Below, piece after piece: positions 9,814 to 56,000 of a stretch of DNA of 64,000 nucleotides. Position numbers and translations under genes: made by a program. Each line of letters starts with the position of its first letter. Position 1 is the first letter of the stretch. The stretch is taken from assembly GCA_034687125.1 (NCBI GenBank), contig JAQGBZ010000230.1:35396-99395 (forward strand), given 5' to 3'. The stretch is from Neelides folsomi (taxonomy: Eukaryota > Arthropoda > Collembola > Neelipleona > Neelidae). A model generated the notes under the pieces. The model was given only the letters and a program-made list of their open reading frames with translations. It was not told the origin of the DNA and made no database searches.

Positions 9814-12800
9814 ATGGGGATGATTAATTTTAGTAATTTTGGTGTGGTTGATTATTTGGTCATCGGTGGAACTCTTTTGTTTTCACTTTCAATCGGCATT
9901 TATTACGCGTTGAAGACCAAACAAACAAATGCGGATCTTTTGGTCGGCGGGAGGAAAATGGGAACTTTTCCCATTTCGGCCTCCATGATGGTTTCCTATT
10001 TCTCAGCTATTACCATTTTAGGTAAGTGAAAAAAGAATTTTAATTGCACAACACCGTTACTTAATTGCATGTCTAATTAATCTATTTTGTTATCTAATTA
10101 ATTATAGTTAGCTGGAAATTGGTAAATTCACAATGAAAAAACAGATGATGTTAAATTAGATTAATTAATTAAATTAATTTTACATTATAAAGGCTACCCA
10201 GCGGAAATTTACTCCCAAGGAACTCAAATCTACATGCAAATTCTAATAATGGGAATTGTCATTTCAATGTCAGCTTTTATATTCGTTCCGGTATTTTTCA
10301 AAATGAAACTCACAAGTGTTTATGAAGTAATTTCAATTAGTAAAATTACAATAATTTATTTTCTATAAAATAATTTGGAAATTGCTTGAATTTGGATTAC
10401 AATTTGCTTTAAGATAGAAAGAAGAAATGTTTTAATTTTGAACTTACCGCGTTAAATGATGATTTTTGTTTAATTTGGCAGTATTTAGAATTTCGCTTTG
10501 AAAGCTCGGAGGTTCGAAAACTTGCCGGTATCATTTTCTGCATTCAACAGTTGATTCTCACAGGGCTGGTTTTGTACGCTCCGTCGATCGCTTTGAAAAT
10601 CTTTTTTGGATTTCCCATTTGGAGTTCAATTCTTGGAATTGGGATTTGCGGAACAATCTATACATCAATTGTAATTAGAAATATAATTAATATTTAGTTA
10701 CATTAAACAATTTACTTGAATTGAGAAAAGATTCATTTTTGATTCATTCAATGCTAATTGTAATTTTGTAATTTGTTTTTAACTAACAATTAGGGAGGAT
10801 TGAAAGCTGTGGTTTGGACGGACGTTTTTCAATTTTTTATGATCATAATCGGAATGTTGGCAATTTTAATCAAAGGGTTCATGAAGGCTGGAGGAATTAA
10901 ACAAGCTTTTCAAACTTCATACGAATTTAATCGTTTGGAACTTTTTGAGTAAATGTCCATAATTTAATTATTTTATAAATATTCCTCTAATTGTAAATTA
11001 AAGTTAAAAGTCAAGTTGAACTGTATAAATATACATTGTATATTATACATTTTAAAATTATATTTTATTAATTATTTATTTAATCAAATAGTTTTACTTT
11101 TGATCCATTCACCAAACACAATTTCTTCAATTTCCTCATTGGCACGGGTTTTCATTCCCTCGTCCAATCCGGAACTCATCAAATGCAAGTCCAAAGATAT
11201 TCGAGTCTGCCAAATTCGAAAGAAGCCATTAAGTAAATTAAAAATAAATTAATAATTTCAATATTAACTTAATATAAATAGTTTTGTCGAAAATCTACTC
11301 CTCATAAATATACAGGTAATAATATTCTTACCTTTACTTTAGAGCCATTTTATTCAGCGTCCCTCTGAAGTTAATTGTAATGACGATTTCTCTTCTAACG
11401 GGAATCGCCATTTTCTCAATTTACGCCAATTGCGATCCGCGGCTTTTGGGCGGAATTAAAAAGACAGATGAAATCGTGGCTTATTTCGTTGTTACTGAAT
11501 TAATTGGAATTCCTGGAATGGTCGGTTTGTTCACTTCGTGTATCTTCAGTGCTGTTTTAAGGTAATTAACCAAATTAACTAAATAAATTAATTAAACTAA
11601 TTAAAGTTAAACCTTGGCCATTTTCAGTTCATTTTCCTCCTCTGTGAATTCAATGGTGGCAGTCACTTGGGAAGATTTCTTCTCAAAATGTAAATGCTTC
11701 CGTCAATCAAACGAAACCTGCAAAGCAAACGTTTCCCGTTTAATTGGTAAAATAGTCTTCCTTATTTTTTATCAAACCAGTTTTAAATTTTGAACTATAC
11801 TCTATTCCATTTGAGAAGATTATTGAGAATTGAATCATGTTACTTGACAAGTCATTAGAAATTATTTCCTGTAGAAATTATTTGCAGGTGACATGACATT
11901 CGATTGCCCGGTCAAGTAACATGATTCAATTCTCAATAATCTTCTCAAATGGAATAGAGTATAATTAATAACTAAACTAAATTAATAGAGATATTTAAAT
12001 AGATAATTATAATGGCTTTAAACATTTTATTTACCTTAGGAGTTTTCTACGGAATAATTGGAATTGTCTTGGCTTTTTCTTGTGAGTTCATGGGATCGGT
12101 TTACACCGCTGGGTGGAAAGCCGTTGGGCCGACGAGCGGAGCTTTGGCTGGAACTTTTATTATGGCGCTCTTCATGCCCTGTGTCAATAAACATGTAAAT
12201 TCGTCAAATTTAATGTTACATTGAAAATTAACGTTAAATTAATATAAAAAATCAATATTAAATTATTAAATTAATGTTAACAATCGATTACAACTAATTT
12301 AAAATTTACTCACAGGGTGCGTTTTTCGGCATGGTTGGCGGAATGTGCGGAATGTTGTTCATCATGATCCAATCGTTCTTTTTTAATGTCCATCAAAATC
12401 CCTTGCCCACGACGATCGACAATTGTCCGAACGGGACAATTTTTCCTTTCAATAATACAATTTTCTACAAGGAAGAAGTTAAATAGTATTTACAAAACAT
12501 TTTAAATATTAATTAATTTATAATGATGTATGATAAATTGATAAATATATGGATATGGGATATGTCATTATTGATTAATAATGCAATTTATTAACTAAAT
12601 AGAATTATTACAATTACAATTAAATTAATTTAATTGTAATTTTATGATAGTGATTGGCCCGATAAGATTTATACTCTTTCGTATACAATGTATCCACCTG
12701 TTGGTGCCTTCATTACCATCACTGTAGGACTCATCGTTAGTTTAATTACTTCAGGTAATTATAATTATAATTATAAGGTATTAAAACATAAATTGTTAAG

Positions 12801-13502: not shown

Positions 13503-13925
13503 TTAAGACTCATCGCTCCTCGGATTCACGATCGAATTGTCCAAGACCAAGTCCATAAGTTCAATTCCTCCATCTTTGCCAATGTGATATTTAAACATGT
13601 CCTCGACAGGGATGAGACGAATGGCTGGTCGCCTCATTCCGGGCAAATCGAGGATTCGAATGTCGAATGGAAATCTTTCTATACCATCTCGATATTTATA
13701 GGGCGAAAGCGTAGATTTGGCCTTTGTTATCGGTCCTTGTTTTTCGAGCCGTTTGAGAGACGTCTTCGAGGTCGTCGGCGTATTTGGAATCGTCGGTGTC
13801 TTCTGAGTCGTCGGCGTATTCGGAATCGTCGGTGTCTTCCGAGTCGTCGGCGTATTCGGAGTCGTCGGCGTATTCGGAGTCGTCGGCGTCTCCTCTCTCT
13901 CCTTGCTGCCTTTTCCGATGTCCAT
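13503..13925 (-). CDS. Protein with TPTTPN-type repeats, unknown function
   Basis: One minus-strand coding exon encodes 140 residues: MDIGKGSKEREE, then about seven six-residue repeats of the kind TPTTPN / TPTTRK / TPTIPN (residues about 13–56), then a non-repetitive region rich in charged and aliphatic residues ending VNPRSDES. There is no signal peptide or membrane segment. An acceptor (ATATTTAG) lies four bases before the ATG, and a matching donor (CAG|GTAAAC) ends a probable non-coding first exon at 14114, so the gene is likely spliced in its 5' UTR. The repeat is also a DNA minisatellite of about 18 bp, and the opposite strand is open across it (an Arg-rich frame), which I take as a shadow. 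The function is unknown. Such Thr/Pro stretches are often O-glycosylated or disordered linkers. Confidence 0.65.
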   Translation of the reverse strand: MDIGKGSKEREETPTTPNTPTTPNTPTTRKTPTIPNTPTTQKTPTIPNTPTTSKTSLKRLEKQGPITKAKSTLSPYKYRDGIERFPFDIRILDLPGMRRPAIRLIPVEDMFKYHIGKDGGIELMDLVLDNSIVNPRSDES

Positions 13926-14113
13926 TATTCTAAATATGATAAAAAGTTATTTGTACAACTCTAATAACAATATTTAACAAAGCCATTTGTTAATCAGGAT
14001 TTTATAATGGCTTCCTTACATTTACAATATTGTTCTCATGCAGCGAATTTATCAAATTAATCAAATTAAACTCTTTGGATTTTTATATTACAAGTAGATT
14101 CAATGATGTTTAC

Positions 14114-31107: not shown

Positions 31108-31211
31108 GTGAGTATATAAATTAACTCTAATTAATTAAACATACTTGATCAATTTAATTAACATTTTTTAATTTTTAAAATTTTAAAATATTTTCAATAT
31201 TTAATTTTTAG

Positions 31212-31625
31212 ATGGGCAAATTCGTAATTTCTCTGGCCCTGGCTGCCGTCCTCAGCCTTCAAATTCTGAAAGTGTCAAGTGAATGTTGCGGATTGGCTTG
31301 CAAGAAGGACAAAGAAGATCTTTGTGCCGACGGATCAGTTCCTGTCGGACCAGCCAAATGTTGCGGCAAAGGAGCTTGCAACATTTTTTGTTGCAATTGT
31401 GACGAAGGTTGTTTGGCTGGCAAAGCTTGTGATGGTTTAACAAAGGAAAATCCCAACTACTTTGATAAAATGGATACAAATAAGGATGGGAAAATTAGCG
31501 AAGATGAATTAATCGAAACCACCAATCAGATTTATCACCCGGAAGATCTACAAGATCTAGATTTCGGATTTTTAGATAGAAACGGTGACGGAACAATCAA
31601 CAAAACTGAAATTGACCTACCATGA
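31212..31625 (+). CDS. Secreted Diedel-like protein fused to an EF-hand pair
   Basis: A 137-residue frame with a signal peptide (residues 1–23, MGKFVISLALAAVLSLQILK…SS). Residues 24–75 form a cysteine-rich domain with 12 cysteines: CC at 25–26, then 30, 38, CC at 50–51, 56, CC at 60–61, 63, 67 and 73. The segment CGKGACNIFCCNCDEGCLAG closely matches the signature end of the Diedel family, small circulating proteins that restrain immune signalling in Drosophila and have relatives in insect DNA viruses. Residues 84–137 hold two EF-hand loops with all calcium ligands present: DTNKDGKISEDE (88–99) and DRNGDGTINKTE (122–133). Known Diedel proteins, as I recall them, end after the cysteine domain, so the calcium-binding tail is unusual. 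The ATG directly follows a splice acceptor, so the upstream exon is non-coding. An AATAAA lies about 20 bp after the stop. A role as an extracellular, calcium-regulated immune or developmental signal is inference. Confidence 0.85.
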   Translation: MGKFVISLALAAVLSLQILKVSSECCGLACKKDKEDLCADGSVPVGPAKCCGKGACNIFCCNCDEGCLAGKACDGLTKENPNYFDKMDTNKDGKISEDELIETTNQIYHPEDLQDLDFGFLDRNGDGTINKTEIDLP

Positions 31626-31643: not shown

Positions 31644-31649
31644 AATAAA
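31644..31649 (+). terminator. Polyadenylation signal of the Diedel-like gene
   Basis: AATAAA about 20 bp after the TGA at 31623–31625, inside TTTCAATAAAATTAAA. The 3' UTR is evidently very short. Confidence 0.55.
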
Positions 31650-35009: not shown

Positions 35010-38000
35010 CTACAAGTATCCTTCAGGCGTTGTAGTGAAATCATAGTCTTGTTCTCGACTGCTGTTGCTCAACGAACTGATCACTTGGTTCAAACTGACC
35101 TTCACTCGAGGCTCAGACACGTCTTTCAAATTCAAACTCAAATTGTTACGGTTCTTTGGACTGTTCTCATTGGCCGTTGAGGATAATTCCGTGAAATCCT
35201 CAGTTTGTGTACACACAGATGCACAAACTTTCTCTCGACCTTCAAATCAAACCAAATGGATTTTAATTAATTTCTCCTTAATCAAATCCAACCAATTTAT
35301 ATTAATTTCTTCTCAATCAAACCTAATTTTTAATTAATTTCTCTTCAATTAAATCTAATTAATTTTATTTAATTTCTACTCACATTCAATAAAAACCAAA
35401 TAAATTTTAAATACATAATTTGATAATTGATGATTTTGTATAGTAATTACCGTCACTTTGTGTCCCCGAATCAATTTTTGGTTTTGGAGCATCTACATGA
35501 TTCTCCTTTGAACTGAAACTTGTCATTTGGATGTTTGGCGGAGGGGCAAGGGTCGTTGAGCTCTGAAGTTGAGTAGGAGGATGGGCCGAAGAATGTTTAG
35601 CTGCTGTCATCATGCTCTGTCGCACGTTACGCTCAGGATGAACCAAAATGATATACAATTTGGGGAAAAAGAGGCAGACGATCATTACAGTAGCACTCAA
35701 ACTGATAGCCACCGTCATGCTTGTGATTCGAAGAGCAACCTTAATTAAGATTAAAATAATAATAGTCTTTTAATAACAACATTTAAAACCATATTTAAAA
35801 TCTTACATACAGTCTTATTTATTGTACATTGTCTGTATGTCTTATTGTCTGTATTAAAATAGTTAAAATTACAATTAATAAATTCTTAAATTCTTACTTG
35901 ATTAGCAGTTGAGAAATAAATAGGGACGAATGCGAGCCAAATGATGCAAGTGGTGTACATTGTAAACCCAATGTATTTTGACTCGTTGAAAGCCTCAGGT
36001 ATTTTCCTGGTCAGGACGGCGTAAACTGTGCAGACCACGATGAGGGTGAGGGGATAGGCGAAAGCGATCGTATACGATGCATTGATGTACGAATGACACA
36101 CGAGGAGATTGTCCTCACGGGTCGGATAATGATGGATTGCTTTGGGGGGTTGAAGAAGCATCCAAACAACTATCACAATAACCTTAAACACAAATAACAT
36201 AATTTATGTTAAATTAAATAAATTATAATTTAAAGTGAAAGCTACAAAAATCCTAATCCGTATAATTAATTTATAAATAATCAATAAATTAACATTTTTA
36301 ATGTAATTTAGTAGATGAGAAGAAACGCTTGTCGCTTTAGGTAATATCAATATTAAATCAGCATTATTAATACCATTATGGTATTATAATAGGAATTTGA
36401 ATTTTATGAATTAAGCAAAGAGAAATTAAGTTATGGATATGGAAAGATTTATGAAGGTTTGGATTCTTTCAACTCCTTCAATGGTCTGAATAGTGAAGTA
36501 ATAAATGGAGTTTGAAAGTTTCTCACAATTCACATTGGTGAATAAATCATCTCTCAAAGTCCATTAAACATTGAAGGACTCAAAACTTTACAGATCAAAA
36601 AAAGTGAATGATTTTAAAAATATCCTTCAAATCACACTTCATCATGACCCAATTAATCTCATACGAAAATTCTACATTTTAAATATACATTCTCATATTT
36701 GTTTCTCAATTGACTAAATATAAATTTCAATTTTTTGCCATTTTTGTCATTTGACTATTTATTATTGGATTTTTCTCGCTTAACTTTACTTTGAATGATT
36801 TTCATCAAAGAATGAATATTAAGAATTTAATTAAATGTCAATATGAATTGTAGTTCATTTCCGAGTATAATGTGAGTATTATTAAGGATTTGATCAGGGT
36901 TGGATGGAGCGTGAAGAAACTGATTTTTACCTGTACCAACACCAATGCAGCACAGATGAGGATTTGTGAGCGTGGGGAGATGAAGGAGGGACGTCGGGCA
37001 GATTTTCGACCAGCTTGGAAAATCCTCGCTATTCGATTCGTCTTGGTCAAAAGGGCAGCGTAAACGGTAGTGAAAGCAAATCCAGTACCGAATTGCTGAA
37101 TCCCACAGATAACGTCGTTTGGTCTAATTTTATAAATTAAATTAAAAAATTTAAATTTAACAATTACAACAGCTGTTCAACTCCTCAAGTTCCATAACAT
37201 ATTTATTTGATTATAAATTATAATAAAAATTAATTAAGTTATTAATAACGAGGAATGAATTCATTGATGAATAATAAAGGTTAATTTAATCTTACTTGAG
37301 TACGTAAATGAATGTGAGGGAATAGCATGAGAAAAGTGCAGCAAGGAGAACGAAAGACAATTCTCGTCCTGATGCTCTCACAACCGGTGTTCCGGAAAAT
37401 TGTATGAAAACCCCCGTCACGAACACCGTCAGGAGAATTCCAATCCCTGCAAATGCCATTGCACCGATCGCCCAACCGCTGAAATTCATAAAACATCACT
37501 TGATGAGAAACAAAATGACAAAAATCTCATTTCACCTTGTGCAAAAAGTCATTCCATTTTTTCCCCTTTTTTCCTTCTCTATCACAATTCACTCCTTTCC
37601 AAAACTCCAAAAGGTCAATGTTCAAAAAACCCGTCGCATATTCCCAATTACATTATTTTTTCCATTTTTCACAAAAGTACACAATATTGTTATTTGGAAT
37701 ATTTTATCAAATATTTACATAAATCTTAAATTAACATTTTTCAGATATAATATCAACTACATACATAATATGTAGTAATTGCACACTGTGTATATCAAAA
37801 AGTTCATATACTGTATATGTATTTATCATGTATAGTTATATTTATATTTAAATGGAAAATTGGACGTATCTATTAAATGGAATCCATAAGGAAAAATTGC
37901 GTGCCATAATTCACAATGCGTATGAGATGTTTTCCAAATAAAGATTCCTATATGTTTTGTTGAAAATGGAAAAAATAGAAAAAAGGTTTTTTGTTGTTGT

Positions 38001-41000
38001 TGAATCATTTTGTAAGGTCGTAGAATGACAAGTAACCTTTTTGGACCAGGCGGAAGAGCGGAGATGGAAAGAGTAAAAATTCATAGCTCCAATGTTTGAA
38101 CTTATTCCGTTGAGATTGGATTGATGAAACAAGTTTCGAGCCGAGATGGAACAAATGTCCAACCCATTTGTCAAGAAAAGAAGAAAAGGAATCGAATATG
38201 CAAATAAACAAATCAAATCTCCGCTCTTCTCCATCCCTCACAAATGTCAAGATTTCCATTTTCAAATCCCGAGAGATCTCCCCTTCTCGAAACCACTCTA
38301 CTTTTAACCCTTCTTCCCTCGCCAATTAAAATACTCATTTACTCCTTAATACCATTTAAATTTTTTTAACAAATATCCTCCTTATTTCAAACTTTACCAT
38401 TTTAACAACTTTAACCTTTTAATTTTTTATTTGCTACGTAGTAGTAAATAGTCATTTATATTATATGCAGTATTATCACGTTTACTCAATTACTGAGAAA
38501 TCACATTTGGTGAAAATAAGTGTAAAAATTCTGAGTAAATGAAGTTAGTTTGGGTTAATTAAAAAGTTTCAGGTTTGATGAATTAATTTGATTAAAAGCT
38601 GGTGGTACCTTGAGGGTTCGAGATATTCTTCCGGAATGTTATTGCATCTCGTGTGGGTCTCATCAGGAAGAGTTCCGAGCTTACAAGTGAAGCACGAACT
38701 TTCATCATCTGGGTGACGAATCTGAATAGGAAATGACCCAAATTCACATTCAAATACACACTTTACTAAATTATAAATAGTAATACCTAATACCTAATAA
38801 ATATGTATTGTATAATTCCAAAGATATTCATTACTACATCGTATTTCCTGTTGATATTACAAATACACTACAAATATTGTAAATCTACAACTGGATTAAA
38901 TATAACAGGTTACAGGTATAACAGGTTATCCAAGTTATCCAGGATTTATATTATATGACAAATCTACACAGAGATTCTTATGCAGTGTAACAGTGGAAAA
39001 TAATTTAGGGAGCCGGAGAAAGCATAATGTAGTGAAAGTAATTAAGGGCTAAAGTACAAGTTGTATTACATATATAAAAGGTAATATGGGATTAAATAGG
39101 GAAGTTTGTGTTTTCGAGTGATTAGAATTCAATTTCACGATTGAGTATTTCCATTTAATTAGTCCGGATGGCGGTGGTTTGTCATTTACCTGGTCGTTTG
39201 TACATTCAATGCAGGACCAGCAGCACGTGTCTCCTCCGACGAATCTCTTCGCTTCTCCTTCACCACACGAGTCGGAACAGACAGACACGGGAGCTTCGTC
39301 ACGCCCATCCGCAAATCTAACAACTAATTAACAAAAAAAATCAAATCAAATTCACATCTATCTAATTTCAATTCCATCTAATTCAAATTAAACAGAAAAC
39401 CACACAAACATTTACAAATCTTAATTATAAGTCAAACAAAAACCTCCAATTACAAATCTTAATTTAAATTAACAATTAAGTTTCAAATTTCCTTATTAAG
39501 TTTCTCAATTAAAAATTCTACCATCTTGACAATAATAAAACTCTACTGAAAATGTTTCATTATTAACCTAAATAAAGCGTATGTGGCAAAGGGAAAATTT
39601 GTAAATAAAAAAGGTGGAATAAAGTTGTTACTAAAAAAGCGGGAAATCGATTAAAGTTGTATTGTAAATAAAGCTAGCGGAAATGTAAAAAACGGTGTGA
39701 GAGATCCAGAGATCATACGTGACATGTTGAGAGAAAGTTCTCCCTCGTTGTATTCTCCAACTCTGACCCAAGCATAGTTGCCGGCCTCTGTCTTTCTAAA
39801 GTGAATAATGTTGTATCGGGCGGGGCCGTCGCCGGCAGAGTCAAAATGAAAGTCGTCACCCGAGAGGCCTAAAGAAACAAAAACTAAGGATTATACCCCG
39901 AGTTACCAGTTCTCGGTTCTTATACACGAGAGAGGAAACTGTTGCTTCCGACACATAACCCAATCCATATAAACTATACAACTCTTCCTTTATATTACTT
40001 TTATATAAACACACATTTCCCTATCAAATTCCAACCTATGTAAAATACCATACAAGTTTAACGTAGTTTACTATACATTTATGCCATATAGTAAACTACT
40101 TTAAATACAAATCTACTTAATCCTTTTATCATATCTCACACTGTGTTATTTAGAATATCTTCCAATATCTAATCCTGAATACTAGCAAGACATATACATA
40201 TGATTATACTGTATATTGTGGGCGTATATCAATACTTCTTCACTAATAGGTATAGTAGAGTTGTAGAGACTTACAAATATAATACCTTAGAGTGCTATGA
40301 AATAATAATAGTTATAGTTTATTATAATAGTAGTAGTGCGGCTTAACATGGGTTTAATACTCTAGGGCCTATAATGGGAAGTATAGGAGTTCCGCCATCC
40401 CAAGTTTTAATTCAAAGAGGAAGAGAAGGCGGGGAGTCAATTTGCAAACCGGATTACTCTCAACAGAATGCCCAGACTCCACAAGGAACGGCTAAAAAGA
40501 AACCGAATTTACGTCCCCTTCAAATCTCTCGCCAAACCCAGGGAAAACTCAAACCAAAATTACGTTCATCCTTTACTTTACAAATACAAAATTAAACCAC
40601 AAATGTATTTAACCCTCAAAACAATAATAAAATTATTATTTTTAATGCCTAATAATAATATACTAAAAATATTACATTTAATATATAGGTAATAACTATA
40701 ATAATATAATATTTAATAATATATTTTTCTATATATCCCATATTACCATATTTAAGATTAAGATTTATTTATTTTCTATAATTTTGTTTGAAAAAATTCT
40801 TACCAACAAATTTAACTTTTTGTAGGTATTTGAGTAGCTCAATTCCTTCAATTGGGTCCATGTTGTCACAGAGTCCTTGCGTGCCGTTGCAAAGGGTCTT
40901 TTGCATATCTTTGAGAGCGTAGGCAAATGCCATTACGGCGTCGGACACGTACTGGAGCTGAGCTTCGAACTGAGTGTTTTCTGGAGTGAGCTTTTCGTCC

Positions 41001-44000
41001 CCGCTGCACGTCCGATTGTACCCAATGTTATATGGAGTTCGTGAGGAATTCGGGTATTTGCACCCGAAATGATGTTCCCAGAATTCTTCAAAAACAAGGA
41101 CATTACTCACAATTTCGTTATTTACACTTTCATTATTTACATACTCAAAGGACTAAAAGTATATCCAAAGTTGTACACTTTGGTATGAAACAATATAACT
41201 AAATAATAATATATATTAATTCCTCTTCTCACTATATATACTTTATATGTTTAGTTATATGTATTTAGTTATATTACTACTAATATGAAAGTCGGTATTG
41301 TAATTATATGAAAATAATAAATATTATGTTTTTCATGAATTGAATGAAAGATTGGTTTGACAGAGTTATATAGTTTCAATATAAATTAATTCCTCTTCTC
41401 AAACTCCTAATTTATTGAGCTATCAATAATTAATTTCCTTCTAGGGTTCCCCTTAATCCTCTTTTGAACTCCTTAATGAATGGAAGTAAAAGAAGGATTT
41501 AATTGGAAAGGAAGATCCTCACATAGCTAATGAGCTCCTTTGGAATATGAGCAGGAAAGAGATTCTAATTAAATCAACAAGGGAGAAAATGGAGAAATCT
41601 TAATAATGGCCCAATAATTAGAACATCTCTTCGGCTCCGACTTTACAACCGCCATTATCTCCCTTTATTCCCTTTTACTTAACCTTAATAAAACAGAGCA
41701 AAATTCACTAAATTTCGCCAATAAATCTTACAACATGAACTAAATACGTTAAATGCTGAGAATTTAACAATATTTAGTACATCATATAAATATAGCAAAA
41801 TTCAAAATCAAATTATCTTATTTTAAATATCTAGCCATACAATAATATCTTAATACTTACATACTCATCTAATATACCATATATGGTACTTATATGAATG
41901 GTATTAGTAAACATTTAGACATTTAGATGTAAACCATATGTATTTATATGGCTTATATATTTATTTAAATGCGAAGGGAGTATTTAAATCTCCTCTTGAA
42001 TGTGATTTGGGTTGGTTGGATTAAACAAAGGAATTTGTGAGTGAAATGGAAGGATGCCAGTGACAGAGTTTCAATTACGGGTGGGTGGAGGGAAATGAAG
42101 GGTAATTGATTGAACTCCCTTCTTCTGCTTCTGTAATTGAGAAGATATAAGGGTCCTTAAACTCAGCTTTCCCGCCAATGATAAATGCAAAATCTTGTAA
42201 TTCAACAATCGACAAAATCATTCAACATCCACTAAGTTCGCAATTCGCAAATCGATAAGTAGGAAATTCACCATATAATATTAGTAAAGTAAGTATAATA
42301 ATACGTAAAATTTCACATTGATAAATGCAAACCATCGGCATTGCAAAATCTGACAGAAATTCACCACTGACATTCACCACCATGTGAATGAAAGCCTACA
42401 GATAATGTTAATGTTGAGTAAAAGTCCTATCCTTAATACATATACTTATACATATACTTATACAGATACATACAGATATAAAATTAAACGTTTGTGTTGG
42501 GGAATGTTCAAGCGATTCGTCTCTTTCGTTAAAGTTGATAACATGGGTATACTTTATATGTAAGTCTATTGAATAAAATACATTTTGAGCTTAAGCCTAT
42601 TTCCAGCTTTCTTCTCCCCAGTGACCAATTTTGGTGGCATTGAGCCGAAGTGGGGAGATTCCTCAGAGGAAAAGCATATGTAGTAATTAGCCAAGCAATT
42701 AAGCTCCACTTCACAACAACCCGCTCATAAAGAAAGGAAGGAAATCCGGCGGAGTCCTCAAGGTACAATTACAGAAATTTCACCATTTTACTCAACAGAA
42801 CCAATTTCTTAGCATATTCACTAATTAACCAATTTAATACCTACAAATACGAGTACTCGTATATAAAAATATAAGGAGACTTCGATTTAATTAAATGAAT
42901 CTATCCTTCCAAATATGGGTATATTGGGTATATTAAACGTCGCAAGATTTAAAGATTTACTCACAATATTTAAATAGTAAAGCGGCCAATTTAAACATTA
43001 ATTTAACAAGCTCTTGATTTATTAGATTTAAATTACCCATCTCAGCATTAACGCAAGATTAAATGACATTGTTAATATTAACGCAAGATTTAAACTACCC
43101 TTGGTAAATATTAACGGTAAATTTAAATTGGTCACAAAGTGTTTAAATTCTGTGATCGTCACAGAATTTAACCATTAAGGTGGGATATTTGAAATTTGAA
43201 GATAACGCGGTTTCAAAATTTCCCTATTGATTACACCAAGAATTATAATCCCATTTTGTCTAGTAAATTTCTCATCTTCTCCGCGCATCATTCATTTTAT
43301 TAGTTCTCCCGCCCAATTTGCATTGAGGTTCTTAAGAAGTCAGGAAAGAGCTCGAGAGATTGAACAAGAATTTTAAGCAGGAGTGACTTTGACTTACCAA
43401 TGAACCAAGGATTCCTCGCATTGTTCCGAATATTCAGGGAAAAGAAATAGTGATCGAAGCCTTTGACGGGATTTGCCCTCGGTTGAACCGACAGCGTCCC
43501 ATCGACTTCAGCTTCATTCCCATCAGAGACCAAAGTCCGAGCCGACCAACCGTCAGATCCAATCCAAGTAAAATACCCAGCTGCACGTTTCTTCTTTACT
43601 GCAACCATCAGTCCTTTTACTTCTTGGTCAGAACCAAAGATGATTACTCCTGCAAAGTAATAAATTAAAATTACTGAAAAATGTCACTATTTTATATAAA
43701 TATACAAAGCATGTGTAATGCACACTGTGTATGTAAATGTACATATTTTCTATGCATCGGCCATATTTTGAATTTACATGAAATAAATGTATTTATATTG
43801 ATTTCACATCGACTTCCCATCGACATGGAATAAGATGTAAATGAAGGGGGATTCCCAATAATGAGAATTTATCAAAGTAGAAAGCCCCCGATCAATAAAA
43901 CCCACCAAATCCTTTTACCCTTTTTAATACTATTAACTTGAGCTAAAGGTAAAGCAATGGAACTTTCCTTTGATACATCTCCCGGCGTGCATGCCGACAA

Positions 44001-47000
44001 AACACATTGTTAACACATTGAACAAAACTAAATGCATTAAATCATAACATTAAAGTATGCATGTAATTCTAATAAATATCGTTATTTCTCTTTACAACCT
44101 CATGCAAGCTCCAATACCTAAAGTCTAAACAAATAAAATTTCTAAGAATCACATTAACAGGAACATGATAAGCCCATTAGCTGAATTAAAATTTATTAAA
44201 ATATTCATTAAAAAGAAGTAAATTTATATAGGAATTGATCTATGGAATGAAAGGGAGTTTTGGGGATAAAACAAATTCAAGTTTTGGAATTGAGGAAGCA
44301 TTTGGCAAATAAATCATTTTTGGAGTGGAAAGGGAAAGGATGAAGGAAATGTCGCCGCATGTAAAAAGCCATGGAGTTGGAAGTTGAAAGAGCATTTGTT
44401 AATAATTTTTAAATCCCTTCCGAACCGTTTCATTTTATTCGAATGTGAATAATCAGGATTGATTATGGGAATCCCTTCCAAACCATTACATTCAATATCA
44501 TCAAATGTTACATAAACTCTCTATTATGATTTCCCATATTCCAATATATTCCAATACAAAAGGTCAAATGTTCCTTTCAGACATTATCATTAAAAACCAT
44601 GTAAATCAATAATATACAATAAATATAAAATACAGATAGTTTATGTTTATTTAAGTTTATAATAAAATTGAACATATTGAATTCCTCAATATATCAAACG
44701 TTGTGTAATCTTTTGAAACTCGCGGCTGAATGAACTTCAAATTCAATTTCCTAAAACCCTCCAACTTTTATTGTAGATTTGGTAAATGTTGACCTGATGC
44801 AATTGAGCACAATGCGACGGCAGAAATACAAAAAACGTGTCCAATGCAAAATGCAATGCATACGAAATAGCTTTATGATATTTTTTGCAAAAAGTAAGAT
44901 TATTCCTATCCATGTAAATGCACTTCTCTTTCCTTTTTTCTTCCTTACTTAAAATTCATTAATTCATTTTCAATTCATGAGAAGAGAATTTGAAATCATT
45001 AAATGCATTTTAGAATTTATATGAATTCATGCACTCATGAAATCTTAACATTTAATTGAAATCTTAAAATTTAATTTAAAATTCTTTTATGAATAACAAA
45101 GTTAAAATTAAGTTAATTAAAGCCAATTTTGAGAAAATCTTGTAAGTTTTTTACCTTTTGCCCGAGCGGCCAAAAGTCTCTCCACAATTCTGTCATAAGC
45201 TTCGTCTTGAGCTACGCCAGAGTCCTTTACCAATTTTTCTTTGGCCGCAATGCAAATGCTCGATTCGGCCAAACTGGTTTCCAATTCTTCAAAAGCCTAT
45301 AAACATTTACACCATTAAAATAGGTCAGTTAAAATTTAAAATAAAATTTAAATATAATTTTCCATACTTTGATCCCATAGTTGGACTCTTCATACACAAT
45401 TGAAACATAGCTCCATTTAAATTTCTTAATGATTGTCACCATCGCTTTGACCTGATATTTGTCGGATGGAATGGTTCGGGCGAAATACTCAAACCTTTGC
45501 TTGTTGCTCAGTTCGGGACTTGTAGAGAAGAAAGAAACCTGAAATGGGAAATTTCCCAATTAACTCTAAATGTAAGTAAGCTCTTTAAAATCAAGTCAAG
45601 TTAAATGATCTAATTGAGCAATAATAATAAATAAGCCATTAGAAGTAAATGAATAAAAGTGAAATAAATGATTTAAAGTGAAGGGAAGTGAAAGCGGGAT
45701 TTTGTTCTCCAACTTTTCCTCTCTTGAGGAATCTGAAGAAGGAAGTGAGTGATATATTTGGTATAAGGGAGAGAAAGATCCCTTTGTGATCCTCGTTTTA
45801 AAAAGGTAGGAAGAGAAAAATTCCTGTCCTTGTCTTCTTCCTTTTTGATTTATTGGCGTCTTCCATTCTTCAACTGATAAACTCAGAGTTCCTCAGCTTT
45901 CGCCGGGTTTCATATTAAAAGTTCCCTTTGTCTACCCAATCCTTCAAAATACTTTTCATTCCCATGCTCCATCTCAAATGCTTTCAATACATTTTCATCA
46001 AGTCATTAAATCCCTAGATATCAACTTACACAAGATCAAACTTCAAATATGAAATATCGTTACAATAAAACATTATAGTGACAGGGTCAAAGGTGAGGTC
46101 TACAGATTACTGATGGCGCAGCTCGGGTCCGGAAACCTTACCTAGCCTGACAAAATAGTATGAGCTCTCCTACTCAATGAATAAGATGAGAAGGAGAGAT
46201 ACAATAATAACTTGTATTTACTGTATCGGTAAATAATAAGCAATTAGTGATAATTGTGAATAAAGTTAATTATATTTGTAAGAGTTGTCCCATGGACAGG
46301 AGTGAAGGAAATGGTGGTTCGACTTCGACTGGTGAAGAGTTGGAGATAATTTAGGAGTCAGGACGGTGAGGTTGGTTCTGGCTTTATCCTGTAGGTGGCC
46401 GTAGGTGTTTTAAGGGGCAGGATCTATCCTCTAATGGATCTCTAATGGTTATTCTCCATTCCCCTCATACCCCCCTCGATCAGCTATGTAGGGTACTGCA
46501 ATATAAAGCTGATCTCTGTTCTGGCTGAAGGGTATGGTAAGAAGTCCAGAATGTTATTAAAGTTTAAAGATTCCTGAGTCCAGGAGATTTAATATCAAAG
46601 AGTACCAAAAGTTACTCCGCTTGGTGTATTCATTATTGAATCACAATTTTGAAAAAATATTTTCTTTTGGTCTTCCTTCAATCCATCTGCATTGTCTTTG
46701 TGTTCTTCATTAATAGAGATCATATCTGCAGATGGTCGAATCTAGTAATTGTCCTTTTTTCTAATACAGCATGAGTTGATGTGGTTGAAGATGTCTTGAA
46801 ATATTGATGGGCAGAGAATACGTCGCTTCCGTTGATCCTCTTTAATTTGCTTTCCCCTCATCATCTGCATCGGTTGAAATGTTTGTGTATCGGTATCGGT
46901 TGTAGTGGAGTTGAATATTGAGTTAGCTGGACCTTTATTCTCTCTTGACAAAATGAGGGTGTTATACGGCTGCACTGCATCAGATAATTCACAAAGATGT

Positions 47001-50000
47001 AGTTGTTTCTTTAGCTCATTGATGTTATTTTGAGTAATATCAGATTGGGTGGCACTTTGGTCTTCTGCGGTTGAAGCCTTATGGCTGTTGAGGTGGGTAA
47101 CGATCCCAAGATTAGCGGGGCTTTAACCCTTGTTGAGTGCCATGTATAGTGACAGGGTCAAAGGTGAGGTCTACAGATTACTGATGGCGCAGCTCGGGTC
47201 CGGAAACCTTACCTAGCCTGACAAAATAGTATGAGCTCTCCTACTCAATGAATAAGATGAGAAGGAGAGATACAATAATAACTTGTGGACAGGAGTGAAG
47301 GAAATGGTGGTTCGACTTCGACTGGTGAAGAGTTGGAGATAATTTAGGAGGTTGGTTCTGGCTTTATCCTGTAGGTGGCCGTAGGTGTTTTAAGGGGCAG
47401 GATCTATCTTCTAATGGAGTTATTCTCTATTCCCCTCAATATGAACATTATTAAAAAAGCTAAAATACACAAAATGTATAAATACAGAAAATAAATAAAA
47501 TACACAAAATGTTTAAATACAGAAAGTGTATAAATCTACATAAATAAAAGACAAGAAATATTGACTAGACATCAAAGTTAATTTAATGTTGAATTTTAAA
47601 TAAAAAAGAAAGTTTGTATGAGTTTTTGTGTTGAGTGAGATGAAAGGGATTGAAATGATACCTGAGGGATTTTGAAGAGTCGAAGAAGATTCGCCACTTG
47701 GATGGAAGTTACAGAGGAAGAAGCTCCAACGACACCCGAAATCACTTTGTTTCTCATCGCCCCTGGAGAACTCCCGTCTGGACACTTGGCTCCAAAATCA
47801 CCATCGTCGATGTTGCTGATCGAACCTGTGGGAACCCAAACCGTGATAAATCAATACCAGAAATAGCACAAAACTTCCTCCACTTGGGAGAGAAACAAAA
47901 ACATATGCCAGGGCTCGAAAAACTTTTTAATACTTAGATCATTTTATACAACTTCCGTTTTATCATCATTTTCATCATTCGCTTCATCTTTCACTTTTTG
48001 AGTTTTTGAGTTTCATAAAATTTATGATCCCAAAGTTTGGTCATTTACTCTCAAAAGTTTATTATTATTTTATATTTTACAAGACTTGTTATTATACAAA
48101 ACATTATTTTAGTAGACATTTTACTATTTTAGCCATTAGTTATTATTTAATAAGACATTTATTGTTATTTTACAAGACAGTTTTATTTAATAAAGAGAAA
48201 GTGCAATTCTTAAATTAATTTAAATTATAAATTGTGTGTTCCAGTGCAATTTATGAAATTGGTTCAGACCAACACGTTTGGGCGAGAATGGAAAAATGGA
48301 ATGAAATTGAATGGTTCAACTTGAAGGAATTTGGCAATGACTTTGGCTTTAAATTGAGTTTAAAGCCATTAGCATTAGGAAGTTTTGAAGGAAGAAGCGT
48401 CTTTAAATTTAATTACGCAAATTTCTAAAGATTCCTCCTCGTGTTAATGCGTAGACCCAAACCCGTTTTATCTCATAGGAATTATAATCATTCCAAACTG
48501 CCCGAACTTGGCATTTCACTACGCAGGATTATCCAAACTTCCCAAACTACCATTTATGGTTTAAATACCCAATTGGGGCAAGAATTATAATAATAATAAT
48601 AATTATAACAATTCCGACAAAATCATAATTGTAATTTAAAATTTAAATAAACCAAACAATAAATTTTAAATAACCTATATTATAAAATGATTTGTAATAT
48701 TGTAAGCAGAATTATCGTCGTTCTATGCGGTTATTGGATAATTATAATAAAATAATAAAAGAAGTGAAGATTGTGAGTTTAAGTCAATAGGTTTTGGATC
48801 TGCCCATTTTGGAAAGTATTTTCTTTTAATCTCGTTGGGTCCCTGATTGGAATTTTTGTTTGCCCACTTCACACCCTGAGAGAGAATCGACTGTAATTAA
48901 AATACGGACTTCCAAACTTTCCACGTTCCTTCCGGTTCCACAACACTTCAACTCTCAACAATCTCTTTCAAAATCTCCCTCCTTTCATTTAACCAAACTT
49001 TCCATAAACCCACGACCCTCCATTCAACAAATACTATTTCATTCACTTCCACTGTCACACATATGTATACAAACTTTACTAATTTAAACATTATTTTATC
49101 CATTACTTAATGAAAAACAATTTTAAACTCATTTTAAACTCTTGAATTAACTTTTATTCAAATAATTAAATTCGAATAATGTTACAAACTTCCTTATTAC
49201 TTTTTTTTGTCATTTTCTCATTATTTAATCATATTATAGTTATATACAACAGTTATACTTATAACAGCATTAAACAATCCCAAAACAAAGTAAATTGAAA
49301 CAATAGCTCCATTAAATGTATAACTTCGGTATTTAGTCTATTTAGTAATTTAGCTCAAAATGTAATCCTTAAATCACCAAAACCAAATCTGCTGAAAAGC
49401 TTCAATCCATAAATGATGAATTTCGAATCGACGATGTCAATGAAGGAGTTGAAGTTATTAGAAACCAATCATGCCTTTGTCAACTCCCACTCTCGAACAA
49501 CATGAAGTTTAAGTTACAGCCAGTTAAAAATGACAGATTTTAGTCGGTTAGAAAGCACACGGGGAATATTTCCTATATTGTAACATCGAGTGAAAAGACA
49601 AAGTTGATCGTTTGAAGAGTTGAGAAATTAATGTGAGGGAGGAGAAAGGGGTTGAATAATTGAGTGAATCTTTGTGCGAAGGAGATTTGAGCTCCAAACA
49701 CTCACACTTCCTTTCTTCTATACTATCCTATCCTATCCTAAATACATCCATAATATACTCAAAAACATAAAAAATGTATTCCCCTAAGGAGGTTCCCAAC
49801 TCCTCCTTCTACTTTGTCTAAAATCATCCTTGACTTTCACCCTCAAACGCCTTTTAATCGAAATTTAAATTTATTCCCTTCAAAATACACCTAAAAATCC
49901 TTTAAACTCTCCATACTTCCACACTCATATAAAAACTATGTAATATTACCTCTATACATTACATATATGCATTTTCTCTTTTCGTCAGATTTTACAACTT

Positions 50001-53000
50001 ACGCAAAAGGCCCTAAAATTTCAACGCCATAAAACCAAACAGCCAACTCAAAAGCTGCACAATAAATTTCAAAAATTTTAAAAACGGCACTTGTAATTTT
50101 ATTAGCTAAAATAGACAAAAACTTGTAATATATTCACAGCTCTATACTGCCAACACGTCAAGTTAAAATCTAATTTGCAATATATACTCATTTTAGTCAT
50201 ATCGCCGTTTTTGGCAATATAGCCATAATTTTTAATATCCAAGTAAATCTAACTTTAAGTAAAAGGCATTATTTAGTCAGGGCATGATATAGCGTTATGT
50301 TAGTATTTAGTATGGGTCTATGAAAATATTTTTGTAAAATGTTGTTTTTTGAATTGAAGTTTATTATTAAATGATAAGTCATAATTTCTCTCATTTCCAA
50401 TTGGTTTGGATTTCCTTATGTTTGTGCCATGTGACGCGTAAAGGGAATTAGGGAAAGTGGATGAAGATAAATCTCGGTAGTGAGATAAAATAAGTCAGTT
50501 ATTATCTTTATTCAAATAGAGTGAGTTGAAGAGAGAGATGAAATTGGATTCTCCGCATCTTCCCCCGTCTTCACATTTGATCTCATTAATCTCTCCCGGC
50601 TCTCCATTAACATTCCCTCCCAAGCTCCACAAGAACTCCATTATTGGAAAGTTCAAAAATCCCTTTCATCTCCTTTTTATTTTATTTTACTCAATAGCAC
50701 TGAAATTGGGAGGATAACTTCATTAATTCCTATACCCTTACAAAATTACAAACATACTCTACGCACAGTAATTAAATTACATAATATATTGGTAATGTAG
50801 GATTTTGATACACCCATAATAATATTTGTGTATACAATATTACTGTATATCCATGTGTGTAGTCAATTTACTTGTTATTTTAAGATTTATTATACTTATA
50901 AATAATATGTCAGTTATAAGCATTTTTTGTATTATTTACTAAAATTTATATAAGTAGATATATTATTAATATGCAGTATAGTATATAATAAATATTGATA
51001 AATAAATAAGTATATCTGGGCAGGTATTCCTTCGGGCAAAAACTTCGTGCATTTTTGAATGAAAATAACGGTTTTATAGAATTTCGAAGTTTATTCGCAA
51101 ATTATATAATCCCCATTGAGTCGAATACATTCTTCCCACCCCAAGTTCCCTGATACATTTTCTGTAAAAATTCCTGTCTAAAGAGTCAAAGTAAGCTATC
51201 ACTGCTTCTTTGACTTCTTCTTCACTTTTGAACACCTTTCCCCTAAGATGACATTTTAATGGACTAAATAAATAGCAATCATTGGGAGCCACATCAGGGC
51301 TATTAAGAGGATGAGCCAATTCGTGAAATTTAAAGCTAATAGTTTGTTTTTAACAGGAAGGGCCTTATGAGGAGTGGTATTATCGTGGAGGAAAAGGTGT
51401 TCCTTCAAAAGCCGAGCTCTTCTTTTCTGAAGCAGGACATTATTCAGAGATGCACGGAGTTTTTGACCGAAGGAATATATTCATTAATCTTATTAGGTAT
51501 ATAAACATTTATGATACGCAGTTGAGATCAAAGCTTATTATTAAATCATCTTCGTATAAGAATGTTAAGAAAGTTAATTTGAATTCTGTCGTATTATGAA
51601 ATGAATATGAAATAAAGGGATTGAAGAAGTTAAGCCGAATTTGAAAACAGATCAAAGAATTTTCCATAATAAATTAGAAATTTAGATCAACAAAGTGAAG
51701 AAAGTTTGCAATTAAAATCCCCTTTGTGGAAAACTCTCATGATTGAATCAACCCTACATTAATAGCTTGCATAAATAATAAATATTATTATAAATATTAA
51801 TCTTCTTTAAGTAAACTTAAAATACCAATAACATTACAAAATTGCAACTTAAAGGATAAATTAAAACGAATACTATAAGAATATACCTATCTATAATATA
51901 CATAAATATGTAACATAATATTAAATATTTCGATGGTATGTAAATATTAAAATGCAAATGTACCGAAGAACCAATGATACATGATGTAGAATAAATGTTA
52001 TATATTACATGGTATATTTGCATATCATATATCATATAAAAGATAAGTTTTAAGCATATGGTATTTAAATTGTGTAAATTGAACAAATGAGTTTAACTAT
52101 CTGTTTCGGGAGCATATCTCCATTTCCCTTGGTCCTCAACTTTTAATCCTCTCCCAAGGCCCCCCATGAAGGAGCGTGGAAATTAATTGCTTTCTAAAAT
52201 ATTGAATGAAACTTCCTTTTAAGAAAGAGCTCATTTGAGAAATGCAAATACCCAAAGCCTCATCTTTCCCTGTCTTTCACTCTTATTAAATACAAGATTC
52301 CATGAAATTCCGAAACTCAAACATTATGAGATAAAGAGAAGATCGAGGAGATTGAGACAAGGAATTGTGTGAGTTAAAAGGAAGAATAATTTCTCTCCAC
52401 AATCCTCATTTATTATTTCTTCTAAGTGCTCTTTTCAACTCCTTTTCATCACCAATGATATTTCTTATTCAAATGATGAATACAAGAAATACATTCATAA
52501 AATTCCACAAACATTTACATAGACTTATAATTACAATTGATTTTTCTTACCCACACAAAGGTCTTTTACCATTTGGTATATTATTTGTATCATACTCTTT
52601 TGCGTAAATTGTTTAGTAAATAATGTTGGATGGGGGCGGACACCTCGTGCTTTGCGTATACGGACAAAAGTTGTTTAAAAATGATAAATTGGATCTGTCA
52701 GTTCAATAAACTCCCCCAAATTCCGATTACTTTCATGCAAAATTCATTCTTAAATCTATCTTAGAAATTCTCCATACATAATTCTCTGTAAAATTTCTCC
52801 CTATACAAATACATACATACTATTTAGATATACAAATACATAAGTAATGGTACATGTACCTAAGTACCTACGAATATACTTATGTAACATATTTATAATA
52901 AATGAATTTTGTATAAATATTCTCTTTTTAGCTTTAGCATAAGTTCTATATTTAAGAGAATCATTCATAATGTGTATATGATATATTTATAATGTATTAT

Positions 53001-56000
53001 ATTTAAGGTTCATAATAAATAGCATGACACTTGAAATTGACAAGAAGGGAAAGGGGAAAACTGCATATTAAATATTTAATCTTTTTAAATTGATGGCTCG
53101 ATTGACTTCATGGGACCAAAATGGCACATTTGAATTCCTCACACCTTTCACCATCAAATTCAATAATTCATCTTTTTCAACACCAAAAACTTCAATCAAT
53201 AAATTTTATAAAAACATTAAAAGTCCCCTCTATTATAAAAAGGAGTAATAATTAAAATGTGGCCTCAATAACTATCCTGCCTTTATTGGCGATTTTTAAT
53301 TAAAAATACTCTTAATTTGGAATCATACTAAAATAGTGCCTTTTGGCATTACAATCAGAGACTCATTTCATCCCGTATGTCTTCAGGGGCTCTTACTGGA
53401 AAATTTCGTTCCGGATTCGATATTTTTTTCTCACTTTTGAAAAAATTATTCAAATTTCATTCTCTTTATTTTTTTAAATCTCCAAGAGCAATTTTATTCA
53501 ATTCATTGATAAAATTATTTAAAATGAATGGAATGCACTTGGAGATTTGAAAAATCAATGGCATTCACTTTAATTTAATTTTATGAAATTATGTTTCTAA
53601 AAAGTTAAATTAAATCTTCAGTGACTGTGTGTAGAACGGTAGTTAAAAAGGCGACATAAGTGGAACGCAGGGAGGTTTAGAGGGGGGCAGAAATGTAACA
53701 GAGTGTGGTTTAAAGGGGGATTGAAGTAAAACGGAGGGGGGATTAGAGCGGAATAGAAGTGGAACGGAGGGCGGTTTATAGTGGAATTGTATTGAAACGG
53801 ATGGTGGGTTAGAGGAGGACAGACGTGGAACGGATGAGAGATTAGGGCGGAAAAGAAGTGGAACGGAAGGTAGTTTAGAGGGCGACCGAAGTGAAACGGA
53901 GGGTGGTTAGAGGGGGACAGATGTAGAACGAAGGTGGGTGAAAGGGGAATAGAAATAGAACGGAGGTTAGTTAGAGGGTAACAGAAGTGGAGCGGAGGGG
54001 GTTTACAGGGAGACTTTAGAACATGTACGGACAAATTAATCGACAAAAGTGCTTGATACAATGTGATATCTTACACCGACGGTTTTGATGGTTATCACGT
54101 TTTTGTGGGATACCGTTACTCGATGGGATACCGGCAAAGGGTGGATCCGTCGGCTGAGTTATCGTTTTCTGGCTGGGATTTTCGGCAAATTCCGGTAGTT
54201 GCCGGAACGGCAACTACCCATGTACTTGGAAGATATAAATTACGGTAGTTACCGGGTCCCGTAACGGCACTAGGTAGTTACCTTAATGGCAACTACCTCG
54301 ATTCGATTTATTTCATTTATATTATGTTATGTTAGGTTAGGTAAAAAGAACTAAAGTCGTAATTCCCATCAATACTAACCTAACCTATCCTAAATTAATC
54401 ATAAACGAATAAAATTGAATAACTTTAATACTGAAGACAGATGCCGCCACGGCAACTACCTAAATTTGCCGGAAATCCCAGCCAGAAAACGATAACTCAG
54501 CCGATACGTCGGGACGACGGATCCGTTAGTCAATATATATAAAATGCGTCGAAAGTAGTTTGTCCGAGGCACATCCCTTTCTTCTGGTCCGATTTTAATG
54601 AGCTTTACACCATTCGATTCGGCATGAACCGAATATGTGCCCTCGACATAAGGGATACGATCAACCGTTTAAGAGTTATTTGCGACGTAGAGGCAACTTG
54701 GGTCTCTTGAAATTTGCAACGCATACCTTTCTCGCAAGGTGGCGGGGGTTTTAGAAGAGCTAATCCAATGGGGGATGAGGATTCATAATAATTTAAATGA
54801 GTTTTAAATGTATTTTGAAAAACTCAGAGTTTGTTTATTCGCGTAGCTAATGGACTCTATTGAATGATAATATTTTTAATCAAATTCTTTTTTTTAATAT
54901 TCTCAACGGAAGGAAGGGAGATGTTTGTTCCGACAACCACGATTACTACTTTAATTTTTTTACTCTTCAATTTATTGACGAGTTTAACTCCTTTACTGAT
55001 CCACGAATTCGTGGGATACCGCTAGTTAAATTTTAAACACTGGAAAATTTTTAAAATTTAAAATTTTGTAGAATTTTATAATATAATGTAGAATTTTTAT
55101 CATTTTCATTAAATAAACTGAAACACAATGTTCTTAATTTACATATCTTAATTTAACCAAAAAAATTGAACCCTAACCAAAATTGTGAGCAAAGTTTAAT
55201 TAAGAAGAAAATTTATTAAAAAATCAATGATAATGAATAATAAAATGAGTTTTAATGCAAGGTCGCAATAAGTGGTTTACTCTGAAAGACTCTTAGAGGC
55301 AAAGTATTTAAATAAAGGGTTAACTTGGCTTATTTATGAAGTGGAGGATTATTGGAGTTGTTAAGTCTGTTTCGTGAATTCCCCTTTAGCCCACGATGAA
55401 CCTTGTCGGTGTGTTTTTGGATCTATTCCAAAACCTTGGATTTTGAATAAATAGAGACTTCTCGACTCACTTGCCTTTCCGAGCAGGTTTCCATTTAAAA
55501 TTGTTAATGTTCGACATGAACACGAGAAAGGCCGACCACTGAACACATTTTTCCAACCAATTCACTCCTCGTTAGGAGGAAAAGCGGAGGAAAACTCCAA
55601 CCGACCACTTCCATCATCACCAGCAAACAAACTCATACTTTCGTTCCTCTCTATAGATTGGCCCTATCTTAATTTCAAATTCATCCTATGTTTTCCTCCT
55701 ATGACTTTCACCTTCCTTTTGTATTCAAAGAGGAAGCTCTTTCCACCCGCCTTTAATAAACTTCCACTTTCCGCCCCTTAAAACATTTATTTACTTTTTT
55801 ACTTTTCCGCCCCTTTATACGCCTTTTATTCCATTTATCCACCGGAAAGGTCAATGGAAAATCCATTGTTTTATTCAACGATGCAACAATTAACAATTCT
55901 AAATTCGATTTGACCCAAATTCGACCCTTTGACCCATATCCAAATTCAACCCTAAAACTAAAATATTTAGAATTAAATATGATAACTAAATAGTATACTA

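Follow-up and report, generated by a model that had tools for sequence, protein, structure and literature searches.

The stretch of DNA studied here, in the following called the window, comprises 64,000 nucleotides of contig JAQGBZ010000230.1 from the springtail Neelides folsomi and contains a short gene for a protein of 137 amino acids, which we refer to as P0001 (Table 1). The frame is free of internal stop codons, and since an ATG frame of at least this length arose in 6 of 40 dinucleotide simulations of 64 kb, the length alone is unremarkable. A short intron in the 5' untranslated region (UTR) is probable, because an AG stands right before the ATG and a GTGAGT lies 104 bases upstream.

The P0001 protein begins with a hydrophobic leader, as judged by eye, and continues with a segment that contains 12 cysteines, from C25 to C73, and the string CGKGACNIFCCNCDEGCLAG. 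This is followed by two canonical 12-residue EF-hand loops in which all calcium ligands are present, in the paired helix-loop-helix arrangement of the EF-hand superfamily. The match to the Pfam Diedel profile reached 28.5 bits (cut-off 21.3, E 2.2e-6) and the match to EF-hand_5, in two stretches, 40.3 bits (cut-off 25.9). When the protein was split, residues 24-75 alone scored 23.6 bits for Diedel and the tail 42.5 bits for EF-hands. Among 177,635 distinct PDB sequences, the best match was fly Diedel (3zzo, E 4.3e-8), which was placed above the EF-hand proteins. The Pfam E-value and the top rank of 3zzo indicate that the domain matches are beyond chance.

The comparison with fly Diedel showed that the similarity is confined to one half of that protein. 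According to the structure paper, SD1 consists of residues 29-59 and 90-117 with a ferredoxin-like fold, and SD2, the conserved half, consists of residues 25-28 and 60-89 with four disulfides, two of which link the SD2 loop to the N-terminus; Ile78 and Phe79 are exposed and held by the strictly conserved Asn77 (PMC3307722). The Pfam match covers residues 34-79 of P0001 and positions 31-74 of the 76 in the profile, which is essentially SD2 and not the whole domain. All 8 SD2 cysteines are present in P0001 (C25, C26, C38, C51, C56, C61, C63, and C67), and N57-I58-F59 align with N77-I78-F79 of 3zzo. The fly chain starts with ECC, and the spacer from the CC pair to the next SD2 cysteine is 32 residues long, as compared to 11 in P0001, which instead has EF-hands in the position expected for the helix and last strand of SD1. 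Since SD1 is missing and the module is followed by EF-hands, P0001 is not a Diedel protein proper. The RGD integrin motif of fly Diedel (PMC9116668) was not found in P0001 and occurs in 9 of 178 sequences (P0001 and the 177 motif-bearing relatives described below).

We are highly confident that P0001 is a secreted protein composed of an SD2 knot and a pair of EF-hands. A preliminary description of this DNA had listed the signal peptide, the 12-cysteine domain with its signature, and the two loops with every ligand, and these features were all recovered; residues 24-75 also gave a profile match to Diedel. Its designation of the domain as Diedel-like holds for the SD2 half, but the domain is an incomplete Diedel.

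Table 1. Features of the window, in positions counted from its first nucleotide
Feature	Position	Strand	Evidence
Coding frame of P0001, complete, single exon	31212..31625	+	137 amino acids plus stop; translation; Pfam Diedel and EF-hand over cut-off
Probable 5' UTR intron	31108..31211	+	GTGAGT donor, AG acceptor abutting ATG; sequence reading only
Hydrophobic leader, residues 1-23, probable signal peptide	31212..31280	+	Sequence by eye; model helix 3-17
SD2-type cysteine module, residues 24-70	31281..31421	+	Pfam Diedel for residues 24-75; 3zzo match
C56-N57-I58-F59, counterpart of fly Diedel tip C76-F79	31377..31388	+	Alignment with 3zzo
EF-hand loop 1, residues 88-99, DTNKDGKISEDE	31473..31508	+	Pfam EF-hand_5
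EF-hand loop 2, residues 122-133, DRNGDGTINKTE	31575..31610	+	Pfam EF-hand_5
AATAAA, possible polyadenylation signal	31644..31649	+	19 bases past stop; sequence reading
Exons of a metabotropic-glutamate-receptor-like gene	35889..57007	-	
7tm_3 match	35889..36200	-	94.7 bits
ANF_receptor match	40772..41110	-	30.5 bits
ANF_receptor match	56732..57007	-	36.7 bits
Weak short-chain dehydrogenase exon	4286..4591	-	adh_short 23.5 bits, cut-off 26.6
Exons, presumably of a sodium-coupled solute transporter	9787..12483	+	
Frame, presumably a piece of a mariner-type transposase	51077..51349	-	
Internally repeated amino-acid runs, probably tandem DNA repeats	13700..13930		
Internally repeated amino-acid runs, probably tandem DNA repeats	53620..54070		

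Two paralogs were identified in the host assembly (75.1 Mb in 840 contigs), a number that represents a lower bound. The first, on contig C173, is 135 amino acids long, 41% identical to P0001 and contains both the module and the two EF loops, while the second, on contig C66, consists of the module alone, with 69 amino acids. A search started from the C173 protein retrieved the same three genes and none further, and a search of the genome with the Pfam Diedel profile recovered the window gene only. The cysteines C50 and C60 are common to the three host proteins and align with a Tyr and a Gly in the fly protein, while C30 and C73 are found in P0001 only among them; the extra cysteines occur in pairs, as disulfides presumably would.

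Used alone as the query, P0001 yielded one weak match in the protein databases. A profile of the three host proteins matched 181 proteins at E<=10, and a profile built from an alignment of 94 sequences matched 502 proteins at E<=0.001. The best 120 in each round were examined, which gave 178 distinct proteins among the matches listed, all of which were retrieved. The tip motif was present in 177 of these, as CNIF in 174, CNFF in 2 and CNVF in 1, and the sole protein without it, P0117, is a calmodulin-like plant protein. With a lenient pattern, at least 2 EF-like loops were found after the module in 129 of the 177 motif-bearing relatives, one in 21 and none in 27. The animals with EF-hands include the springtails Orchesella dallaii, O. 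cincta, and Allacma fusca, the ostracod Darwinula stevensoni, the nematodes Panagrolaimus and Acrobeloides, and amphioxus. They are joined by fungi (Lasiodiplodia, Apiospora, Phaeosphaeria, a Phaeosphaeriaceae, Paraphaeosphaeria, Exophiala, Usnea, and Sistotremastrum) and by the bacteria Rudaea and Tahibacter, both from metagenome-assembled genome (MAG) records. No EF loops were detected by the pattern in Drosophila palustris, D. subpalustris, D. albomicans, the fungus Paraphoma, the foraminifer Reticulomyxa, and two Allacma records.

The alignment behind the second profile contains 94 of 121 sequences (120 listed proteins plus P0001), the 27 omitted being mostly without EF-hands or of odd length. 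The residues N57, I58, and F59 are invariant across its rows, and at the first and the last calcium ligand of either EF loop conservation is 90% or higher, a figure that partly reflects selection since the rows were chosen largely for having EF-hands; the unselected counts are the 129, 21, and 27 given above. EF-hand_5 was matched by 90 of the 94 members. Precomputed Pfam annotations of P0069 from the lichen fungus Usnea florida and of P0153 list PF13164 together with EF-hands. The EF-hand protein P0138 from the fungus Apiospora is titled "Protein Diedel", yet has no Pfam Diedel match at E<=1. A PAN/Apple domain was precomputed in P0074, and a PAN match below the cut-off was seen in P0091.

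The preliminary description had considered the joining of the two parts a new architecture, a claim that is contradicted by these records. The SD2-plus-EF-hand architecture is already present in the databases, though in no paper that we found: neither the combination nor the motif strings of the family were encountered in the literature searched, from which most subscription papers were absent. In the passages of papers that contain both words, "Diedel" and "EF-hand" are used for different proteins. In the 2012 structure paper, the only sources of Diedel reported outside of Drosophila were the pea aphid and a small number of insect DNA viruses (PMC3307722), and the experiments described in the literature searched concern the fly protein and a viral homolog.

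Orchesella dallaii contains many copies of the family. Its protein P0123, of 294 amino acids, contains two module-plus-EF-hand units in tandem and may be part of a gene cluster with several single-unit records, whose contig has the identical length (856196). In O. cincta, the 140-residue P0094 is recorded as "Calcium-dependent protein kinase 2", an apparent misnaming from the EF-hands.

The link between this family and Diedel was also recovered with arthropod sequences left out of the profile. A module profile of nine non-arthropod sequences (Rudaea, Lasiodiplodia, Usnea, Apiospora, Sistotremastrum, two from amphioxus, Reticulomyxa, and P0012) matched 3zzo at E 7.7e-7, the sole other match being at E 9.6, and the link is therefore not circular. 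Furthermore, four relatives with a long, Diedel-like spacer were aligned, P0108 from Drosophila palustris, P0113, P0116, and P0121. The three of these that were scanned, P0108, P0113, and P0116, match the Pfam Diedel profile from its position 1, and the profile of all four matches 3zzo across its first 74 residues. This profile also matched the module profile (99.2% probability over 33 columns) and the host profile (98.95% over 39 columns). Of 178 sequences (177 relatives plus P0001), 163 allowed a measurement of the spacer, which was short in 157, with a median of 10 residues, and long in 6, including the four above; it was unmeasurable in 15. P0052 from amphioxus and P0153, which have EF-hands, contain a longer spacer with extra cysteines, and such members may be intermediates between the short and the long forms. 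The long-spacer form of D. palustris, P0108 (ACLKA6_000745), and the short forms P0118 and P0090 (ACLKA6_000739 and 000740) have neighboring locus tags and contigs of equal length, which makes these three genes a place to look for the gain of SD1. The two short forms bear basic tails.

The cysteine C61 was missing in 10 of 180 aligned sequences, all 10 of which also lacked one N-terminal cysteine, as compared to 5 of the 170 that have C61. This pattern fits the crystal structure, in which the SD2 loop is bridged to the N-terminus.

The history of the family was examined in a tree of 175 tips and 115 columns, from which 6 of the 178 relatives were left out (P0117, without the motif; the tandem proteins P0123 and P0124; and the truncated P0096, P0104, and P0111). 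The tree recovered all 6 amphioxus proteins as a group (support 0.999) and nearly recovered Orchesella, with 10 proteins in a clade of 12 (0.978). Fungi, nematodes and drosophilids were not recovered as groups in this tree, P0001 was not grouped with the springtails and its sister placement had a support of 0.06, and the tree cannot decide between vertical descent and transfer. The C173 paralog grouped weakly with an Allacma protein (0.61). The C66 protein clustered with two 99-residue proteins, P0016 with one EF loop and P0039 with none by the pattern (0.86), a position that suggests that its EF-hands may have been lost secondarily.

In a scan of 84,980 bacterial species, 67 stretches matched the family pattern and 2 were relatives. 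Tahibacter soli was clear, and a betaproteobacterial MAG matched query residues 71-138 only, which is the EF part. The T. soli member (L032 4995-5516) is a secreted-looking protein of 173 amino acids with CNVF for CNIF and one N-terminal cysteine; that such members are rare in bacteria points to a gene acquired from a eukaryote. In one alignment, 17 proteins were treated as bacterial, of which those bacterial by name are Rudaea and Tahibacter only. The preliminary description had suggested a search among arthropod and insect-virus proteins, and the Pfam Diedel and EF-hand matches and a wide family were found. A viral origin was considered and dropped, as two profile scans gave no confirmed relative in a collection of viral contigs that may lack insect DNA viruses. 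A pattern scan of the viral contigs gave 10 loci, which were taken as chance since the motif fell in a short between-stop stretch in 10 of 10 and no other family feature was seen.

The layout of P0001, in which a signal peptide is followed by a compact SD2-equivalent disulfide knot, a short linker and a canonical EF-hand pair, suggests a mechanism to which we assign an even balance of probabilities. The protein would be oxidized in the secretory pathway and its EF-hand pair loaded with calcium outside the cell, to give a disulfide-locked extracellular binding protein. The rigid knot would hold out its conserved CN-I-F loop, a hydrophobic tip, for contact with an extracellular partner, and the EF-hands would be a calcium-dependent stabilizing or docking body in the place taken by SD1 in insect Diedel. 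The EF-hands, SD1, and perhaps PAN would then be exchangeable bodies on one SD2 knot. Our confidence in the tip as the contact site is likewise evenly poised; the conservation of the Ile-Phe tip across bacteria and animals is explained most economically if the tip binds something. Extracellular calcium is usually millimolar, for which reason the EF pair is likelier to be always loaded and stabilizing than to act as a switch.

We further lean slightly towards the view that Diedel, an insect cytokine and virokine, represents a derived branch of an old secreted calcium-binding family, in which the SD2 knot and its CNIF tip would be the working part common to all. In the insects, SD1 would have been inserted into the spacer and the EF-hands dropped, viruses would have captured the derived form, and the family would either predate animals or have crossed kingdoms.

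Several results weigh against these readings. The C66 paralog has the tip CNAF and no EF-hands, and the module does not depend on EF-hands, as indicated by the 27 of 177 relatives without an EF-like loop. The Pfam Diedel scores of the two host paralogs (14.4 and 10.5 bits) are under the cut-off, from which it follows that the Pfam model sees only part of the SD2 family, and only 29 of the 94 aligned members match it at E<=0.01. The covariation of C61 amounts to about two events, since eight of the ten sequences are related bacterial-like proteins and the other two are fungal. A single-sequence fold of P0001 was uninformative, with a predicted local distance difference test (pLDDT) score of 40.7, and in the P0001 model the confidence in the cysteine module was moderate, in blocks of 55-80. 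Fly Diedel was not in the best 50 of the 990 Foldseek matches of the model in the PDB, nor among the VIA-align matches listed, both of which were filled with EF-hand proteins. Foldseek gave 9 matches in BFVD, of which six were labeled as EF-hand or calcium-binding, one as "Ca2+ BP" and two were without a name. The 94-row profile gave 616 PDB matches at E<=0.01, with EF-hand proteins among the matches listed and 3zzo not in the best 60. Overall, the structure comparisons neither support nor exclude an SD2 fold.

One alternative is an immune cytokine of the Diedel type, which would be secreted upon infection to dampen IMD or JAK/STAT signaling and would have gained its EF-hands as a means of attaching to the matrix. 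This would account for fly Diedel being the top PDB match and for the presence in P0001 of the half that is conserved in Diedel (PMC3307722), and STAT_bind matches over the cut-off occur in the host (best E 6.4e-31). However, P0001 lacks SD1 and the RGD motif, and the extension of the family to fungi and bacteria makes insect-type signaling unlikely as the shared function, and we regard this explanation as improbable. Marginally less probable still is an abundant structural or matrix protein of cuticle, egg or secretion, stabilized by calcium and disulfides and with the tip driving self-assembly. This idea draws on the mushroom Tricholoma matsutake, in which a secreted Diedel-domain protein of 158 amino acids is the most expressed fruiting-body gene, with homologs in Sistotremastrum (PMC6980582); the listed Sistotremastrum members P0057 and P0098 carry EF-hands, and the many copies in Orchesella dallaii agree with it. 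Yet one mushroom is weak ground, and the main text of that paper, the fungal case among the searched papers on the Diedel domain or PF13164, does not contain the term "EF-hand".

Diedel-like proteins have also been reported in caterpillar and wasp venoms (PMC11335235, PMC11944595, PMC6945029), and P0001 is small, cysteine-dense, secreted and of a multigene family, as expected if it were a defense or venom-type peptide on an EF-hand body. We think that this is quite unlikely, since such strong conservation of the tip and of the calcium ligands would not be expected of fast-evolving toxin surfaces. That the gene is dead, or a chance or assembly join of unrelated parts, is extremely improbable given the uninterrupted frame and the occurrence of the same join in the C173 paralog and in 129 of the 177 listed relatives.

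If Diedel is derived in the manner proposed, a conserved partner should be common to fungi and animals. The SD2 link to several hundred secreted EF-hand-type proteins of fungi, springtails, nematodes, amphioxus, and bacteria gives Diedel a likely ancestry and offers a reason why SD2 and not SD1 is the conserved half. The CNIF tip defines a set of residues to test in Drosophila, for which Diedel null mutants and rescue assays exist (PMC9116668). In public records, members of this one family are concealed under labels such as "EF-hand domain-containing protein", "Protein Diedel", and even "Calcium-dependent protein kinase 2".

Elsewhere in the window (Table 1), two scanned pieces of the putative transporter gene and the mariner-like frame gave no Pfam match at E<=0.01; a second frame, at L002 220-675 on the reverse strand, is also presumably a piece of a mariner-type transposase. 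The host mitochondrial contig contains trnL(taa) between cox1 and cox2, and its gene order is presumably the ancestral pancrustacean one, with trnN not found. A mite and a strepsipteran were rejected as the host; for a strepsipteran mitogenome, moved tRNAs are reported (PMC7889101). Three modest 7tm_6 matches over the cut-off (36.3, 29.4, and 25 bits) were identified in the host, which we take to be gustatory receptors, none of them Orco-like, as well as two weak PBP_GOBP matches just over the cut-off. A springtail host was favored by COX1 motifs, by these receptors and by the weak grouping of the C173 paralog with an Allacma protein, while the PBP_GOBP matches and the placement of P0001 apart from the springtails are neutral or speak against it.

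Among known systems, P0001 shares with Diedel (CG11501, PF13164; Drosophila, aphids, insect DNA viruses, and insect venoms) the eight SD2 cysteines, the CN-I-F tip with its conserved Asn, the signal peptide and the small size, but differs by the absence of SD1 and RGD, the extra C50/C60 (and C30, C73) and the C-terminal EF-hand pair. SPARC/BM-40 (PF10591) similarly contains an extracellular EF-hand pair next to a cysteine-rich module, but P0001 scored only 14.2 bits against SPARC_Ca_bdg, with a cut-off of 22. Dockerin type I (PF00404) has two EF-like calcium loops, but the score of P0001 was 18.4 bits, with a cut-off of 22.9. Further counterparts are the database SD2-plus-EF-hand proteins, such as those of Orchesella dallaii (P0022), Branchiostoma (P0052), Usnea (P0069), Apiospora (P0138), and Tahibacter (P0076), which share the leader, the CC pair, the short spacer, TPCCG-x-G-x-CNIF-C-x-NC, and the two EF loops, and from which P0001 differs by an identity of 25% to 42% (full-length rows) and by the extra C30/C73 pair.
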